Assembly (NCBI RefSeq): GCF_029767755.1
Contig: NZ_JARUQS010000001.1
Span: 1,364,001-1,428,000 of the forward strand
From: Thiomicrorhabdus sp. zzn3
Lineage (GTDB): Bacteria; Pseudomonadota; Gammaproteobacteria; Thiomicrospirales; Thiomicrospiraceae
Direction of reading: 5' to 3'
DNA length: 64,000 nt
Made by a program: the position numbers and the translations under genes. The notes below the pieces were generated by a model. It worked only from the letters and a program-made list of their open reading frames with translations, was not told where the DNA came from and searched no databases. Positions 53,775-61,223 of this stretch are shown piece by piece (positions within the stretch are counted from its first letter, which is position 1; each line of letters begins with the position of its first letter).

Positions 53775-54434
53775 TTAGTCTTCCGTTCGCAAAACCGCTT
53801 TCTCGGCAGATTCCGGGTCGCAAATTGACACATCCAGATTATGCAAACGGCCATCTTTAATGTCATAAATAAAGCCATGAATACACAACTCTCTCCCCGG
53901 TTGCTTCCAGGCTTTTTTCACCGCGGGAACGTGACAGATATTACGCACCTGCTCCATGACATTGATTTCACACAAGCGATTCACCTTCTCTTCATAGGGC
54001 AACGCGTCGAGCTCTTGCTGAGCTCGACGGTAATACTTGCGGATTGGACGAATCCAGTGATCAATCAAATCCAGATTAGTCTCTTCTAACGCCGCCATAA
54101 CACCACCGCAACCATAGTGGCCATTGACGATAATGTGCTTCACCTTAAGCACTTCTACCGCATACTGAATGACGCTCAACACATTCATATCACTGGAATT
54201 AACCAAATTGGCAATATTACGGTGAACAAAGATCGTACCGGGATCCATTTTAACCAATTCGTTAGCAGGCACCCTGCTGTCGGAACACCCAATCCACAAA
54301 TACTCAGGCTTCTGCTGGCTGGACAGGTTTTTGAAAAATCCAGGTCTATCGTGATTAACCTGATCAACCCAGTCACGATTATTGTCTAACAGCAATTCAA
54401 TAGAGGGGTGAGCATCACAGCATTTTTGGCACAT
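53775..54434 (-). CDS. can: Beta-class carbonic anhydrase
   Basis: Interconverts CO2 and bicarbonate in the cytoplasm. The zinc and active-site residues are C50, D52 and R54 (WIGCSDSRVPANE) and H106 and C109 (VNGHYGCGG). The 219-residue length is typical. It lies downstream of the cbbMQO genes on the same strand, about 4 kb past RuBisCO, and probably serves carbon supply. The N-terminus MCQKCCDAHPS has three extra cysteines not usual in Can. The AAGGAT before the ATG supports this start. Confidence 0.96.
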   Translation of the reverse strand: MCQKCCDAHPSIELLLDNNRDWVDQVNHDRPGFFKNLSSQQKPEYLWIGCSDSRVPANELVKMDPGTIFVHRNIANLVNSSDMNVLSVIQYAVEVLKVKHIIVNGHYGCGGVMAALEETNLDLIDHWIRPIRKYYRRAQQELDALPYEEKVNRLCEINVMEQVRNICHVPAVKKAWKQPGRELCIHGFIYDIKDGRLHNLDVSICDPESAEKAVLRTED

Positions 54435-54507: not shown

Positions 54508-54537
54508 ACAAAAAATGCCCTCGATAAGGGCATTTTC
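54508..54537 (-). terminator. Intrinsic terminator upstream of the carbonic anhydrase gene
   Basis: AAAATGCCC (54512-54520) and GGGCATTTT (54528-54536) enclose a seven-base loop, with A- and T-rich flanks usable on both strands. It lies between the cbb operon tail and the carbonic anhydrase gene, so the latter should have its own promoter. Confidence 0.7.
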
Positions 54538-54556
54538 TGGTGGTTTTAGAAACTTT

Positions 54557-54676
54557 CTAAAACACTATTATACCTATTTTAGTGGAATAAGAGGTTTCCA
54601 TCGCCGCGATTCCTGTCTTGACTTCATCGATACAATATTGAAAACTTCCCTTGCCAATCCACTCCGGAACATTCAA
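54557..54676 (-). pseudogene. Remnant of a cbbO/norD-like gene (VWA-domain fragment)
   Basis: In one minus-strand frame this stretch encodes IDEVKTGIAAMETSYSTKIG before a stop. CbbO of this window (about residues 636-653) reads DEVKARIAAMEASYSTRM. Thirteen of 18 residues agree, and the DNA agrees too (GAATAAGA and TTCCATCGCCGCGAT on the plus strand). The frame has no ATG and is bounded by stops, so it is not a gene. It is the piece around the MIDAS threonine. It lies in the otherwise empty 54435-54751 spacer, which also holds a terminator. Confidence 0.7.
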
Positions 54677-54751
54677 TCATACCTATTAAGACCCGTCTCG
54701 TTCCATGCACGAAGAAAATCGTCCAGCAAAACGGGCCATTGAAAAAACTCG

Positions 54752-55186
54752 TTACCACCAATGATGAGTGACGGGTTTTTCCTTTGGCCTATGCTCTTTG
54801 CCCAGTTCATAAGCAGCCTTAAGTGCTTTAGCTATCTGAGGATTCGCGTCCAAATCAAGTTGGTGATTTTCCGCTATGTTCTGCAAATAAGCCTCAGGCC
54901 CCACCTTTTGATAAAGATCCAGGAAGGTTTCGACTCGCATTGGCAGGTTAGGGATCGCCGACGCAATTCGAGATTGAAAGCGAATGACTTCAATCTCACT
55001 CGATTCCAACATCTCAAATTTATAAGAGATCACATCCATTTGATTCTGTTTGGCGATTCTATTAGGGAGCTGCTGCAAAAACAGCTCGACATCATCCACA
55101 TAGGAAGGTAAATCAATATCGGCCTCATAGCAAAACGTTTCACCACGAAAATCGAATGTCGATCGAACCGTTATGGTTGATTTCAT
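54752..55186 (-). CDS. Uncharacterised protein encoded directly after cbbO
   Basis: A soluble protein of 144 residues (start MKSTITVRSTFDFRGETFCYE at 55186, with AGAGGG four bases upstream). It ends PVTHHWW and begins 16 bases after the cbbO stop, so it should be cotranscribed with cbbQ and cbbO. The first 75 residues look beta-rich (KSTITVRSTFDF, SYKFEMLESSEIEVIRFQ), the rest helical. There are no cofactor motifs. The operon context suggests a link to RuBisCO activation or bicarbonate use, but I do not recognise the family. Confidence 0.8.
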   Translation of the reverse strand: MKSTITVRSTFDFRGETFCYEADIDLPSYVDDVELFLQQLPNRIAKQNQMDVISYKFEMLESSEIEVIRFQSRIASAIPNLPMRVETFLDLYQKVGPEAYLQNIAENHQLDLDANPQIAKALKAAYELGKEHRPKEKPVTHHWW

Positions 55187-55202
55187 AGTTCCCTCTCGCA
55201 CA

Positions 55203-57467
55203 CTAATGTGTCAGCTTCATAAAGACTTGCGGCAACTGTTCCGGCAATTTCTCTACATGATCAATGACCGTATATTGATTACCGAATATATCCGCCACAT
55301 ATTCATCCGCATTTGGATCAAGTGTAATGCAGTAAGAATAAATCCCCTTGCTCTGCAACTCTTCGACCGCCTTGTGGGTATCCTGAATCAGCGTCTGCGG
55401 ATCTTTGGCATCGATATCCGCCGGCTCACCGTCCGTTAATACCAACATCAACTTTTTCTCGGCCTGCTGAGCTTCGAGATAGTGTGCGGCATGCCGCATG
55501 GCCGCCCCCATTCGCGTTGAATAAGACGCTTCCATCGCCGCGATACGCGCTTTCACTTCATCGGTATACCCCTCCGAATAGCCCTTGATGTGCTGGTAAC
55601 GCACTTCATGGCGCGTATCGGAACAGAAGCCGGCAATCGCAAACTTATCGCCCAGCTGCTCGACGGTCCAGGCGGTGATGGCCAAGGCCTCTTCGGAAAG
55701 CTCCAACAACGTCTGCCCGGTTTCCTGGTTACGCTCATTGAGTGATTGCGACGTATCCACCAATAACATCACCGCGATATTACGGCTATCCGTGGTATGG
55801 CTGTAGTTGATTCGCGGATCCGGCGCTTGCCCGCTCTTAAAGTCGATTACCGAACGCAGCGCTACATCCAGATCCAGCTCCTCCCCTTCCTCTTGGAAAC
55901 GAATACGCTTTTTGTTCTGCGGCTTGAGCATTTCGATCATTTTCTTCAAACGCTTGGCAAGATCACCGTGTTTTTCCATCAAACGGTCGATCTTGCGGGG
56001 ATCTCCAGACGGGTGCAGGCGTTCATAAACAGTGGTCCAATCAGGACGGTAACCTTCCGAAATATAATCCCACTCATCGTAATGACGCGGCGGCAAACCA
56101 CCTTCATTATCCACCACCGGCTCTTCATTCTCATACTCGTTTGGAAGAATTTCATCTGGCTCATCATACTCTTCGTAGTAGAACCAGATATAACGATTAT
56201 CGTCACGATAAGAAATTTCCGTATCGTCAAAGAAGACACTCGGCAGACTATCCGACGACTGCTTGCGGGATTTTACATAGAAATCGATTCCGAGCTCAGC
56301 CATATCCGCCGTGGTCGAGCTCTCGCCCTTCTCAGCCATGACTTTATGAAAGCGCTCACGAAAGGCTTCAAGCAGTGGGTTTTCCGGATCAAAGTTCTCA
56401 TCTAGCAGCGCTCGTGACATACGCGTGGCACGGTAGCGCAGACACGACTGTTTGCTATCATCACAAGCGCCTTTTTTCGGATAAGGGTGCAGAGCCAAAA
56501 ACAACTTCTTCAGACCGGGATATTTCTGTATGGCCAAATATTCAACACGGCTGTCTTCAAAGATCGAAATAAACAGCTGCATGTGCGGTGCATAATTATC
56601 CGCCATTAGCCGGGTTGACCACCTATAGTGTGCCATCATGTGAGCCAGCGTCGCACGATAACGGTCGATCCCAGAAACACCATTCTCCTCATCATACACA
56701 TCAGGAACGGCAATCAAGGTTTCATCAAGATAAGGTACCGGCTTGCGCAGCTGGTCAAAAGCGGTCGCAAAGGTCTGGAAAGGCAGGTCGCAATCCCACA
56801 TACAGGATTTCAACATATCCATATGACGCTCGACATCCTTGAAGGTCGTGCCTTTACGCTCACGGGTAATAATGCTCTTGGCATCGTGCGATTCCAGCTT
56901 GAAGTAGGCGATCTGCTCGTCCGGCGCATTCAGATAGTTACGCGCACCGTAATCGATGAAGTTGCGGATACCGTTCAGACATAGCTTGGAAATCAGCTGC
57001 GGCATGGACTCCAGCAACGCCACCATACCCGGACTTTCATAAAGGGAGTGGTGACCGTGAATAACCGTCTGCGTCTTCTCGACATACTCGTCGATAATCT
57101 CCAGATAGCGCTGCAGGTCCTCCACTGTATCGATGCGTCGACAAACACTGCTTAATGAATTCAAAAAGGGAATCAGGGCTTTTTTATTAGGACTGCGCGC
57201 CAGCTGATAGCTGTAGTCGGCAATCATTTTGTTGGTTCCCTGCCCGAAGTGTGAAGCGATATCCGGCATGACTTCCATAAAGACCAAAACCGGCTCGACG
57301 CCCTGGCCGATTTTACACAGGAAATTGGCCCCATCTAAATAGGCTTCAACCCCTTGTGGCGACAGCTTAGCAACGGCATCACCAAGCAGATCAGGAAACA
57401 GTTCGATCGCTTTTGGAAACTTACAGGTAAACTTCTGTTGATATTCGGCTAATAATTCTTCATTCAT
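55203..57467 (-). CDS. cbbO: CbbO, RuBisCO activase adaptor with VWA domain
   Basis: CbbO works with the AAA+ ring of CbbQ to remove inhibitory sugar phosphates from RuBisCO. The 754-residue protein has a long helical N-terminal part and a C-terminal von Willebrand A domain (about 565-754). Its MIDAS is visible: VMLLVDTSQSLNERN (DxSxS), the Thr in YSTRMGAAM and the Asp in VLTDGEPAD. An acidic linker (about 440-490) lies between. It follows cbbQ by 176 bases. NorD is the paralogous partner of NorQ, but the RuBisCO context settles the name. Confidence 0.93.
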   Translation of the reverse strand: MNEELLAEYQQKFTCKFPKAIELFPDLLGDAVAKLSPQGVEAYLDGANFLCKIGQGVEPVLVFMEVMPDIASHFGQGTNKMIADYSYQLARSPNKKALIPFLNSLSSVCRRIDTVEDLQRYLEIIDEYVEKTQTVIHGHHSLYESPGMVALLESMPQLISKLCLNGIRNFIDYGARNYLNAPDEQIAYFKLESHDAKSIITRERKGTTFKDVERHMDMLKSCMWDCDLPFQTFATAFDQLRKPVPYLDETLIAVPDVYDEENGVSGIDRYRATLAHMMAHYRWSTRLMADNYAPHMQLFISIFEDSRVEYLAIQKYPGLKKLFLALHPYPKKGACDDSKQSCLRYRATRMSRALLDENFDPENPLLEAFRERFHKVMAEKGESSTTADMAELGIDFYVKSRKQSSDSLPSVFFDDTEISYRDDNRYIWFYYEEYDEPDEILPNEYENEEPVVDNEGGLPPRHYDEWDYISEGYRPDWTTVYERLHPSGDPRKIDRLMEKHGDLAKRLKKMIEMLKPQNKKRIRFQEEGEELDLDVALRSVIDFKSGQAPDPRINYSHTTDSRNIAVMLLVDTSQSLNERNQETGQTLLELSEEALAITAWTVEQLGDKFAIAGFCSDTRHEVRYQHIKGYSEGYTDEVKARIAAMEASYSTRMGAAMRHAAHYLEAQQAEKKLMLVLTDGEPADIDAKDPQTLIQDTHKAVEELQSKGIYSYCITLDPNADEYVADIFGNQYTVIDHVEKLPEQLPQVFMKLTH

Positions 57468-57643: not shown

Positions 57644-58444
57644 TTAGCCGAAAATCATTTCGATTGCGTTATCCAGGGTTTGGCGAATGTCTGCATCGTC
57701 GGTAATCGGACGAACCAATGCCATCTTACAGGCTTCAACCGGTGTAATACCTTTGTTGATTAGGGTAGCCGCATAAACCATTAGACGAGTTGAGATCCCT
57801 TCGTCCAGACCGTGTCCTTTTAAATTACGCGCGGTTTCACCGATCTGAACCAGTTTCTTCGCAGTCGCCTCATCCACACCACCTTCTTTTTGCAGGATAT
57901 GCGCTTCGGTTTCTGCATCGGCATAATCGAAGTCCAACGCACAGAAACGCTGTTTGGTGGACTGCTTAAGGTCTTTCATGAGTGACTGATAGCCCGGGTT
58001 ATAGGAGATAACCAACTGGAAATCTGGATGCGCTTTGATGAGTTCACCCTTTTTATCCAGAGACAGCTCGCGACGGTGATCCGTCAGAGCGTGGATCACC
58101 ACCATGGTGTCTTGACGCGCTTCAACAATCTCATCCAGGTAACAGATGGCACCATAACGCGCCGCCATGGTGAGAGGTCCGTCAACCCAGCGGGTTCCGT
58201 TGGCATCCAGCAGGTAACGACCCACCAAGTCTGAAGCGGTAATATCTTCGTTACAGGAAACGGTGATGATTGGCTTACCGAGTTTCCAGGCCATATGCTC
58301 TACAAAACGCGATTTACCACAACCGGTTGGCCCTTTTACCATCACAGGAAGACGCGCATCATAGGCGGCTTCGTATAACTCAATCTCGTTGGATTGTGCA
58401 TCGTAAAAAGGTTCATTGTCGATTTTATATTGTGAAATATCCAT
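57644..58444 (-). CDS. cbbQ: CbbQ, MoxR-type AAA+ RuBisCO activase
   Basis: The ATPase of the CbbQO activase. Walker A is GPTGCGKS (38-45), Walker B AICYLDEIVEAR near residue 100, sensor 1 LVISYNPGYQSL near 150, and RFCALDFDY and ISTRLMVYAATLI follow. The 266 residues match CbbQ. GGGGA lies 5 bases before the start. It is separated from cbbM by a terminator and a hairpin, so it should be expressed at lower level than RuBisCO. Confidence 0.95.
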   Translation of the reverse strand: MDISQYKIDNEPFYDAQSNEIELYEAAYDARLPVMVKGPTGCGKSRFVEHMAWKLGKPIITVSCNEDITASDLVGRYLLDANGTRWVDGPLTMAARYGAICYLDEIVEARQDTMVVIHALTDHRRELSLDKKGELIKAHPDFQLVISYNPGYQSLMKDLKQSTKQRFCALDFDYADAETEAHILQKEGGVDEATAKKLVQIGETARNLKGHGLDEGISTRLMVYAATLINKGITPVEACKMALVRPITDDADIRQTLDNAIEMIFG

Positions 58445-58506
58445 ATCGTTCCCCGTAACAATTATGGTGAAAATAAGATGCCCGTCTACTTACCTCTGGG
58501 CGTGAA

Positions 58507-58557
58507 GTTATTTATGGTTGACCACTCCTATAACGAAGCGAGTCATCAATAAATAAC
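58507..58557 (-). other. Long hairpin in the cbbM-cbbQ spacer
   Basis: GTTATTTATGGTTGAC (58507-58522) and GTCATCAATAAATAAC (58542-58557) pair in 14 of 16 positions around a 19-base loop. In the transcript it would stand just after the cbbM terminator and about 60 bases before cbbQ. It may stabilise the 5' end of the cbbQO mRNA or bind a regulator. Confidence 0.5.
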
Positions 58558-58590
58558 CTAGTAAAATATTTGGTTTTTTTTGCTTGATTG

Positions 58591-58625
58591 AAAAAAAACC
58601 CCTGCCCGAGAGCAGAGGTTTCTTT
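58591..58625 (-). terminator. Intrinsic terminator downstream of cbbM
   Basis: On the minus strand AAACC-CTGC pairs with GCAG-GGGTTT around CTCTCGG, with one mismatch, and runs into eight T. It begins about 35 bases after the cbbM stop. Partial read-through would give low cbbQ and cbbO expression from the strong cbbM promoter. Confidence 0.75.
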
Positions 58626-58657
58626 ACTAAGTGTTACCTTACGTAATTGACTCGCAA

Positions 58658-60058
58658 TTACTTGTGCACACCTAGCTTCTCACGCCAACCTGGGAAGTAC
58701 TTGTCAGCATCACCAGGGAAAGATTCAAATGCGCGAGCAAACTCTGGGTGATCCTTAGCGTATTCGATAGGATCTGCACCCGTTTTCCAGCACTCATAAG
58801 CTTGGCCTAGAGAGATACCACCGGCCGCTGGAGAATCGATGTGACCGAATGAACCACCACCACACGTGTTGATGACGTTACCATGACCTAGGTTTTCGAA
58901 GAAACCAGGTAGACGTAGCGCGTTCATACCACCAGAAATGATTGGCGTAGTCGGCTTCATGCCGTACCACTTCTGATAGAAGTAAGGTCCTTGACACTCG
59001 TCACGCTCAAGCATGTAAGCGAGTACACGCTCATCGCTGTGACCTTCCATCTTACCGTAACCCATAGTACCCGTGTGGATACCAGAAGCCCCCATTAAAC
59101 GAGCAAGCTTCATGTAACATAGAGGATCCATACCCATTGGTGACTTGTAAGAAGTGACCGCACCATGACCTGCACGGTGGAAGTGTAGGTAAGTATCAGG
59201 GAATTCACGACGAGCCGTCGTCACACCCGCTGGACCCGTTACGAAACCGTCAACCAGGAATGCAACGTGTTTTTCATTACCGTACTTAGCGAATTCACCC
59301 AGGATGTACTCACCACGCTTAACCATTTCTTTATGGAAGTCGGCGGTCACGTTCGCAGAGAACAGTTTAGCTTGACCCGTCGCTTGTTGCGCACGATCCA
59401 TTGCTTCGGCAACCTTAGGAATAACCACTTCCATTGGGCAGAAGTTTTGGTTTGCTTGTGGCTCATCGTTTTTGATGAAGTCGCCACCCAACCAGAAGTC
59501 ATAACAGGCTTTCGCGAATGGCTCAGGACGTAGACCTAGTTTTGGCTTGATGATCGTACCAGCGATGTAACCACCGTCAACTTCTGGACGACCTAGAACT
59601 TTCCATAGATCAGCAATCGTTGTAGCAGGACCGTCGAACTTCTTGATCATTTGCTCTGGAACCAAGAAGTCCAACATACGTAGACCTTCGTGATCACCCA
59701 TACCTTGGTTGTTCCCCAGGATTAGAGACCACATATGAGAAACGTTATAGAAACCATCGATCAGGTTAGGGTCGAACAGGTCAACTGGGTAAGCGATCTT
59801 CATCAGACCACCTTTGTCACCAAACGCCGCTTCGTCAATCTCGTATACTAGAGCATCAACACCACGAGTGAAGTCATCCGTAGTCGATACTTCAACGTTA
59901 GTACCCGTTGAAGATTCAGCAGCAACGTGAGCAGCTACTTCTAGGAAACCGTAACCAGCAGCTGGTTTTAAACGGTATGCAACAAGAAGGTGATTACCAT
60001 CAGCAATCAACTTTTCTTCTGATAGAGTTAAGTCAGCGTAACGATTCGACTGATCCAT
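58658..60058 (-). CDS. cbbM: Form II ribulose-1,5-bisphosphate carboxylase/oxygenase
   Basis: Fixes CO2 onto ribulose 1,5-bisphosphate in the Calvin cycle. The 466 residues have the form II length. Active-site residues, by alignment with Rhodospirillum rubrum plus five, are K171 (GTIIKPKLG), the carbamylated K196 with D198 and E199 ([10 protein letters not shown]), the His in HFHRAGHGA and the mobile-loop Lys in MGYGKMEGH. Codon use looks strongly biased, as for a very abundant protein. GAGGT lies 7 bases before the ATG. Form II enzymes suit high CO2 and low O2. Confidence 0.99.
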
Positions 60059-60278: not shown

Positions 60279-61223
60279 TCAACTCAACTTATTGAAGGCT
60301 TGCTCACTGAGCGACTCCCCTTCCCGCTTCAACAACTCAATCAACTTCTCAGCCGCAATAGAAAGCACCTTGCCATTTGGATAAGCCAGATACCAATGGC
60401 GGTTGATCGGAAACCCTTTTACTTTAAGAATCGCTATTTCGCCGCGTTCAATCTCATTCAACAGGGTTGGAATCGAAGCCACAGTAATGCCAAGGTTTTG
60501 CATCAACCCCAGACGTATCGCCTCGTTGCTCCCCAACACCATTTTCACCGAGGGTTTAAAATCAAAACTCTGAAACACCTTTTCCACTTGCGCGCGGATT
60601 CCCGACCCAGTTTCGCGCATTAAGAAGGGTTCATGCTCTAAATCCTTGATCGACAAAGATTTGCCCACCAACGGGTGATTTGGATTGGCGACAAACGCCA
60701 GTGGATTAATCGCCAAAGGCGATGAACTCACATTCAACCCCTCGGGCGGCTGCCCGAGAAGATAAAAGTCATCCTTGTTCTGGGTAATGCGATCCAACAG
60801 GGTCTCTTTATTGCCGACACGCATCAACACCGTCACATTTGGATAGGCCTGGGTAAACTCCTGAATGACCTTCGGCACGAAATACTGCGCGGTAGAAATC
60901 ACCGACAGTTTTACCGTTCCACCGGAAAAGCCCTTGAGATGATTGATTTTTTGTTCGGCAATCGAGAGTTTGGCGAGAATAGCCTCGGCCGCCTCATAGA
61001 GCGCTTGCCCGGCGGCGGTCAAATAGACCTTGCGGCCAATCTGCTCAAATAAGGGGGCATCGAGCACGTCACTGAGTTTTTTGACCTGCATGGAGACGGT
61101 CGGCTGGGTGAGATGCAACTCCTCCGCCGCTTTAGTAAAACTTTGGTTACGTGCAATACTTTCAAAGACCTGCAACTGACGCAAGGTGGCATTACGCGCT
61201 AAGAGTGAGATTTTTTCAGGCAT
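60279..61223 (-). CDS. cbbR: LysR-type regulator CbbR
   Basis: A LysR-family regulator of 314 residues. The N-terminal winged helix (about 12-72, LRQLQVFESIARNQSFTKAAEELHLTQ in part) is followed by an effector domain with SVISTAQYFVPKVIQEF and FLMRETGSGIR, typical of CbbR proteins that sense RuBP, NADPH or similar metabolites. It is upstream of and in the same direction as cbbM, whereas LysR regulators are commonly divergent from their targets. No strong Shine-Dalgarno is seen. Confidence 0.93.
   Translation of the reverse strand: MPEKISLLARNATLRQLQVFESIARNQSFTKAAEELHLTQPTVSMQVKKLSDVLDAPLFEQIGRKVYLTAAGQALYEAAEAILAKLSIAEQKINHLKGFSGGTVKLSVISTAQYFVPKVIQEFTQAYPNVTVLMRVGNKETLLDRITQNKDDFYLLGQPPEGLNVSSSPLAINPLAFVANPNHPLVGKSLSIKDLEHEPFLMRETGSGIRAQVEKVFQSFDFKPSVKMVLGSNEAIRLGLMQNLGITVASIPTLLNEIERGEIAILKVKGFPINRHWYLAYPNGKVLSIAAEKLIELLKREGESLSEQAFNKLS

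Follow-up and report, generated by a model that had tools for sequence, protein, structure and literature searches.

The window, a 64,000-nucleotide stretch of the genome of Thiomicrorhabdus sp. zzn3, contains a form II RuBisCO operon on its minus strand. An upstream LysR-type regulator (60279..61223, minus strand) is followed on the same strand by cbbM, encoding a form II RuBisCO of the lineage designated here M2 (58658..60058), by cbbQ (57644..58444), by an intact form II cbbO in which the VWA domain is present (55203..57467), by a gene for an uncharacterised 149-aa protein, named SM here, that is conserved behind form II cbbO (54752..55201), and by a beta-carbonic anhydrase gene (53775..54434). 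The spacer between SM and the carbonic anhydrase gene carries a cbbO-derived remnant, recognised by its similarity to the window's cbbO (54573..54632, minus strand; 45-base core at 54584-54628), which lies 0.9 kb from the intact gene and on the same strand.

The order of genes behind cbbO differs among the compared clusters. In the SM layout, cbbO is followed on the same strand by SM, often by a small membrane protein, and then by carbonic anhydrase. The direct layout, found in ZW0627, T. chilensis, SC-1 and CG07, places carbonic anhydrase immediately after cbbO, with a diverged SM homologue reversed behind; JE_KL2 has the direct order of cbbO and carbonic anhydrase without SM. A reversed SM remnant was looked for between the carbonic anhydrase gene of the window and PpnP, and none was found. 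Twelve SM rows were aligned, with 58-81% identity to the protein of the window, whose best Pfam match, DUF6900, is below threshold (E 0.0086), and whose structural model (mean pLDDT 76.6) gave no PDB fold match at an E value of 0.001 or better. As a guess, SM could be a partner of the CbbQO activase. In three relatives, cbbO is split by apparent frameshifts (L173 in G046, L174 in G018 and L177 in G006, the last also with stops within the matched frame), reflecting either decay or assembly errors.

The remnant belongs to a stop-bounded frame of 39 aa on the minus strand (LNVPEWIGKGSFQYCIDEVKTGIAAMETSYSTKIGIIVF; 54557-54676) that matches the CbbO of the window at 13 of 18 positions without gaps, the best matches beginning at residues 634-637. 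A sequence-only reading of the locus had described this match together with similarity in the DNA, and both were borne out: with the spacer as tblastn target, CbbO was matched at an E value of 5e-7, and 46 of the 60 bases at 54573-54632 (minus strand) are identical to the window's form II cbbO (E 1e-10). The six-frame ungapped score of the spacer is 72, a value reached in 0 of 1000 first-order Markov shuffles, whose maximum was 54. In searches of the same genome with a 121-base query, cbbO was the best non-self match (E 8.9e-7; runner-up E 1.62), and it was also recovered when the whole spacer was used as query (E 2.3e-6). The similarity exceeds chance at both the DNA and the protein level. 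Convincing resemblance to cbbO is confined to 45-60 bases, the remainder of the 120-base segment matching nothing by itself. When 148 intergenic segments of 29 clusters were searched against cbbM, cbbQ and cbbO, the remnant at 54573-54632 was the sole clear match, the best match in 20 shuffled sets having an E value of 0.016. The frame has no start, and residues common to the cbbO rows are altered in it (STRM to STKI), marking it as no longer coding; this agrees with the earlier description of a decayed fragment rather than a recent partial repeat. In this CO2-fixing sulfur bacterium, some 50 bases of an older cbbO, a RuBisCO-activator gene, do persist in front of the carbonic anhydrase gene.

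Comparison with individual cbbO genes indicated the type of gene from which the remnant derives. Identities of 36-45 of 60 bases were found with 20 of the 22 form II rows, the other two being G010 (32/60) and G021 (30/60), against 26-30 of 60 with the nine form I-like cbbO rows from second clusters and 28-32 of 60 with four rows of other families. By these counts, the source of the remnant is a form II, not a form I, cbbO, and an origin from a form I or NorD gene is disfavoured. By plain identity, the own cbbO, T. chilensis and Milos-T2 tie at the top (45/60). With the whole spacer as DNA query, E values were 5.6e-8 for the cbbO of T. chilensis, 1.2e-7 for Milos-T2 and 1.1e-6 for G004, compared with 2.3e-6 for the own gene; in these three genomes the match falls within the cbbO gene and not in a spacer. 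The search for other cbbO copies suggested by the earlier reading did reveal a second, distant cbbO in the same genome, which matches the fragment at 27 of 60 bases. The second cluster to which it belongs also contains a cbbQ (72%) and a large RuBisCO subunit that is called form I-like here because it is only 32% identical to CbbM. The proposed scar of a lost cluster fits as far as a form II cluster is concerned, whereas its form I variant is not supported by the identity counts.

Several other features were noted in the spacers of the operon. At 54510..54536 (minus strand), AAAATGCCC...GGGCATTTTTT, read by eye, would form a terminator-like hairpin followed by a T run; the terminator scan listed none here, and a similar hairpin is found in T. 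cannonii, G004, ZW0627 and T. chilensis. Between this hairpin and a TATAAT motif, a perfect 21-base palindrome, GTTTTAGAAAGTTTCTAAAAC, occupies positions 54543-54563, with partial matches of 17-28 bases and weak significance in several genomes of the genus. For the 119 bases separating SM from the remnant (54633..54751, minus strand), relatives were searched and none were found. A second gene remnant in this stretch was considered and rejected, its longest gene-like peptide having no Pfam or NCBIfam match; among the compared loci this peptide had no relative except the spacer itself, and one plasmid match was obtained (E 8). A plasmid or phage origin of the spacer was also rejected, as no match was found (one search used the spacer plus the 149-aa gene). 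The Rfam search returned five matches up to E 5, none near the gathering score. In the spacer between cbbM and cbbQ (58445-58660, minus strand), a weak match to cbbO residues 382-444 of one relative was detected (27% over 63 aa, E 0.002) with 1 of 10 cbbO queries; 0 of 20 shuffled sets reach this E value, and the match overlaps a terminator-like stretch. This segment is a possible second remnant, on which nothing is built here.

The RuBisCO block and its flanks have conflicting histories. The LysR of the window is 86-88% identical to those of ZW0627, T. chilensis and T. cannonii and at most 81% identical to others, and LysR trees, from which rows below 55% identity were dropped, unite the window with these three (support 100/99.6). 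The same four genomes plus G007 are united in the gyrB tree (100/99.9), which comprises 19 of the 30 gyrB-search loci, genomes without form II cbbO or without a full gyrB being left out. By contrast, the cbbM of the window is 71% identical to those of ZW0627 and T. chilensis, and 95-96% to those of T. cannonii, T. heinhorstiae, SC-1, JE_KL2 and others. At the DNA level, identity to ZW0627 and T. chilensis amounts to 64-72% in the first three quarters of cbbM, 81-82% in its last quarter and 69-83% in cbbO, while M2 rows are 84-93% identical to the window in cbbM and 72-91% in cbbO. A clade of the window with T. cannonii, ZW0627 and T. chilensis was rejected by the AU test on cbbM (dlnL 509, p 3.2e-4), and the same four plus G004 were rejected as a clade on cbbO (dlnL 167, p 1.5e-7), with Kangiella, Sulfurivirga and G010 omitted from both tests and G006 also from the latter (25 rows); the cbbO genes of G018 and G006 entered the trees as their longest piece. 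On the other flank, the carbonic anhydrase of the window groups with those of T. cannonii and G004 (support 96), and these join ZW0627, SC-1 and CG07 (support 84), whose carbonic anhydrase genes have cbbO directly upstream; T. chilensis falls outside that fork. The direct layout is likely the older one at this locus. The conflict of the LysR and gyrB trees with those of the operon genes argues for replacement at the same site rather than for a second, coexisting set; a second cbbQO set had been one option of the sequence-only reading.

The cbbM tree, which includes one outgroup row, separates two lineages with an SH-aLRT of 100: M1 (11 rows; aligned span of 459 codons, 1377 bases) and M2 (16 rows including Sulfurivirga; 466 codons, 1398 bases), with M1 rows 68-71% identical to the M2 cbbM of the window. 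On the gyrB tree of 19 genomes, a minimum of five changes between M1 and M2 is needed, parsimony counts by which the direction of the swaps is not fixed. The gyrB sister pairs G014/Milos-T2 and G021/G042 each consist of one M1 and one M2 genome, and cbbM rejects both pairings (p 2.2e-5 and 2.5e-5, respectively). The same was found for CG07 and SC-1, sisters by LysR and carbonic anhydrase, one carrying M1 and the other M2 (p 4.7e-13). By parsimony alone, M2 would be allowed as the older state in the gyrB clade of the window, because three of its five genomes (the window, T. cannonii and G007) carry it. The cbbM of the window joins SC-1 (support 80), that of T. cannonii joins G042 (95), the cbbO tree separates the window from T. 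cannonii and G004 (97), and LysR, cbbM and cbbO of G007 are sisters of those of G018; since neither the cbbM nor the cbbO tree makes sisters of the window, T. cannonii and G007 blocks, the pattern fits separate arrivals. Towards the end of cbbM (about 58658-59010, minus strand), DNA identity between M1 (ZW0627, T. chilensis and CG07) and M2 rises to 81-82% in the last quarter from 60-72% before it, which may reflect either strong conservation or an old recombination joint.

With a probability of roughly 0.6, we read the fragment as the 3' stub of a displaced resident form II cbbO, left as debris when the complete RuBisCO gene set gave way to that of a relative. The ancestor would have had LysR, cbbM, cbbQ, cbbO and carbonic anhydrase in this order, the carbonic anhydrase promoter coming immediately after cbbO, an arrangement that T. 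chilensis and ZW0627 still show. These resident genes would have been displaced by a cbbM-cbbQ-cbbO-SM block of a different lineage, probably through recombination between similar sequences, and a portion of the earlier cbbO would have survived between the incoming block and carbonic anhydrase. Loss of about 100 codons would then have fused this leftover to the old stop codon, the remainder undergoing decay.

The sequence next to the remnant is consistent with such a course. The remnant runs into CAC-TAA (54579..54584, minus strand), which may be the last codon and stop of the old cbbO brought to the remnant by the deletion, the exact joint being ambiguous because the ungapped alignment (through STKIG) continues to 54573. 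Six bases further lies TATAAT (54567..54572, minus strand), likely the -10 box before carbonic anhydrase; it does not appear in the promoter scan list because no good -35 lies ahead of it. The distance from the cbbO stop to TATAAT is 7 bases in ZW0627, 6 in T. chilensis, 5 in CG07, 13 in SC-1 and 14 in JE_KL2, so that the remnant occupies the position expected of the displaced gene, directly before the carbonic anhydrase TATAAT, like cbbO in these five clusters. The probability of CAH-TAA occurring 5-7 bases ahead of a given TATAAT is about 0.003 under a first-order null, for an agreement that was noticed post hoc. We propose that selection for carbonic anhydrase expression could explain where the deletion ended, because the promoter-like TATAAT abuts the old stop.

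Phylogenetic placement of the remnant was carried out on a cbbO tree of 26 genes and 49 branches, with 26 of 29 cbbO rows kept and Kangiella, Sulfurivirga and G010 dropped. The 45-base core was placed on T. chilensis with a weight of 0.404, on ZW0627 with 0.084 and on their common branch with 0.084 (sum 0.57), and on the own branch with 0.017 (dlnL 3.2, AU 0.196), the remnant having few informative sites and the AU test keeping the own branch among others besides T. chilensis and ZW0627. The expectation for this placement was not blind, because T. chilensis had already been seen as the top non-self DNA match. A 63-base version with ambiguous ends gave a flat placement (own branch dlnL 0.17), and a version with one 3-base insertion, a gap of the analyst's choice, was placed on T. 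chilensis (0.459) with rejection of the own branch (AU 0.028). Decay was also simulated, using present-day sequences as sources and a simple mutation model: when the own copy was decayed neutrally with as many changes as observed, 0 of 400 draws gave the observed preference and 4.75% had T. chilensis or ZW0627 on top. When each of the 26 genes served as source for 200 draws, T. chilensis reached the observed preference in 42.5%, three of the other 25 sources did so in 0.5% each, and the rest, including ZW0627 (0/200), in none. The outcome for ZW0627, the second member of the favoured clade, and the lack of a remnant in T. cannonii and G004 weigh against the replacement reading.

These results bear on the past duplication of cbbO put forward in the sequence-only reading, according to which a piece of the own gene was copied into the spacer in this lineage, for example by tandem duplication of the 3' part of cbbO plus SM followed by deletion, and then decayed neutrally. 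We consider this origin unlikely, while acknowledging that the own cbbO is among the three best matches, that the donor would be close by and on the same strand, that the own branch survives the AU test for the core, and that the 63-base version does not discriminate. Against it stand the low own-branch weight of the core, the rejection obtained with the analyst-chosen insertion and the absence of the observed preference from all 400 simulated decays; moreover, it leaves unexplained why CAC-TAA and TATAAT should occur at a spacing like that of T. chilensis and ZW0627.

Arrival of the fragment together with the new block, from a donor in which SM was already followed by a cbbO fragment or by a second block, appears quite improbable. 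The unmatched 119 bases between SM and the remnant could be donor flank, but no SM-layout genome in the 29 clusters surveyed has a cbbO fragment behind SM, and the remnant adjoins the promoter region of carbonic anhydrase, not SM. Almost no weight is given to a putative functional short copy, such as an RNA or DNA element acting on cbbO expression: the segment adjoins a promoter-like box and the perfect palindrome at 54543-54563, but it matches no Rfam family at gathering score, is not kept in T. cannonii or G004, and has changes in residues invariant in the compared cbbO rows (STRM to STKI). Chance similarity, which the earlier reading would have accepted if relatives offered no longer alignment, is extremely improbable: the segment is short, no relative examined shares it at the same place, and no longer remnant was found in T. 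cannonii or G004, the two sister genomes with the same spacer, or in the spacers of the 29 clusters, but the DNA E value, the shuffles, the rank as best non-self match in the genome and the location on the same strand of the same operon still speak against it.

The replacement of a gene or operon by the homologue of a relative, with a pseudogene left behind, is known as xenologous replacement. Displacement of a resident cbbO at this locus would resemble it in that the trees of block and flanks differ and the window's block is bordered by the decayed remains of a homologous gene; it differs in the shortness of this piece (45-60 bases) and in the small number of sites that support its descent from the displaced copy. 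Listings and abstract openings in the open literature contain nothing on a cbbO scar or on exchange between M1 and M2. A 2006 study by Tourova et al. on RuBisCO genes of Thiomicrospira may already describe transfer of cbbM. The family from which the remnant derives, CbbQO-type RuBisCO activase genes, is treated in PMC4660213 and PMC8718961, the remnant being no functional member of it. In excerpts from a study of Thiomicrorhabdus (PMC12175532), the RuBisCO complement of the genus is patchy, the distribution of forms is termed complex, and the form II cassette comprises LysR and cbbQ/cbbO, as in the window; unlike the present analysis, its main text does not contain the words "horizontal", "transfer" or "HGT", and its sections 6 and 8 and further passages mention neither two exchanged form II lineages nor a cbbO scar.

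The excerpts from PMC12175532 also describe a set of "cold-inferred" form II sequences, including that of ZW0627, that have substitutions and gaps in common. In our trees ZW0627 is M1, whereas T. cannonii, T. heinhorstiae and T. marina, three of the five mesophilic references in the excerpted parts of that study, are M2; the cold signal may thus partly reflect which allele lineage is present, or a swap of the block may confer cold tolerance. A broader proposal, to which we would give even odds, is that form II RuBisCO in Thiomicrorhabdus and Hydrogenovibrio behaves as an exchangeable allele at a fixed site, with M1 and M2 being swapped together with cbbQ and cbbO between close species, and that the lineage of the window passed from M1 to M2, the cbbO scar recording the direction. 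A gene remnant left where a block has been replaced can reveal the previous allele, information that trees by themselves often fail to give. Combined with the recurrent disagreement of cbbM lineage with the species tree, it makes the patchy occurrence of RuBisCO in these chemoautotrophs a testable history of operon exchange, and it advises caution, in that a contrast of "cold" with "mesophilic" form II enzymes may be one between two horizontally moving lineages.
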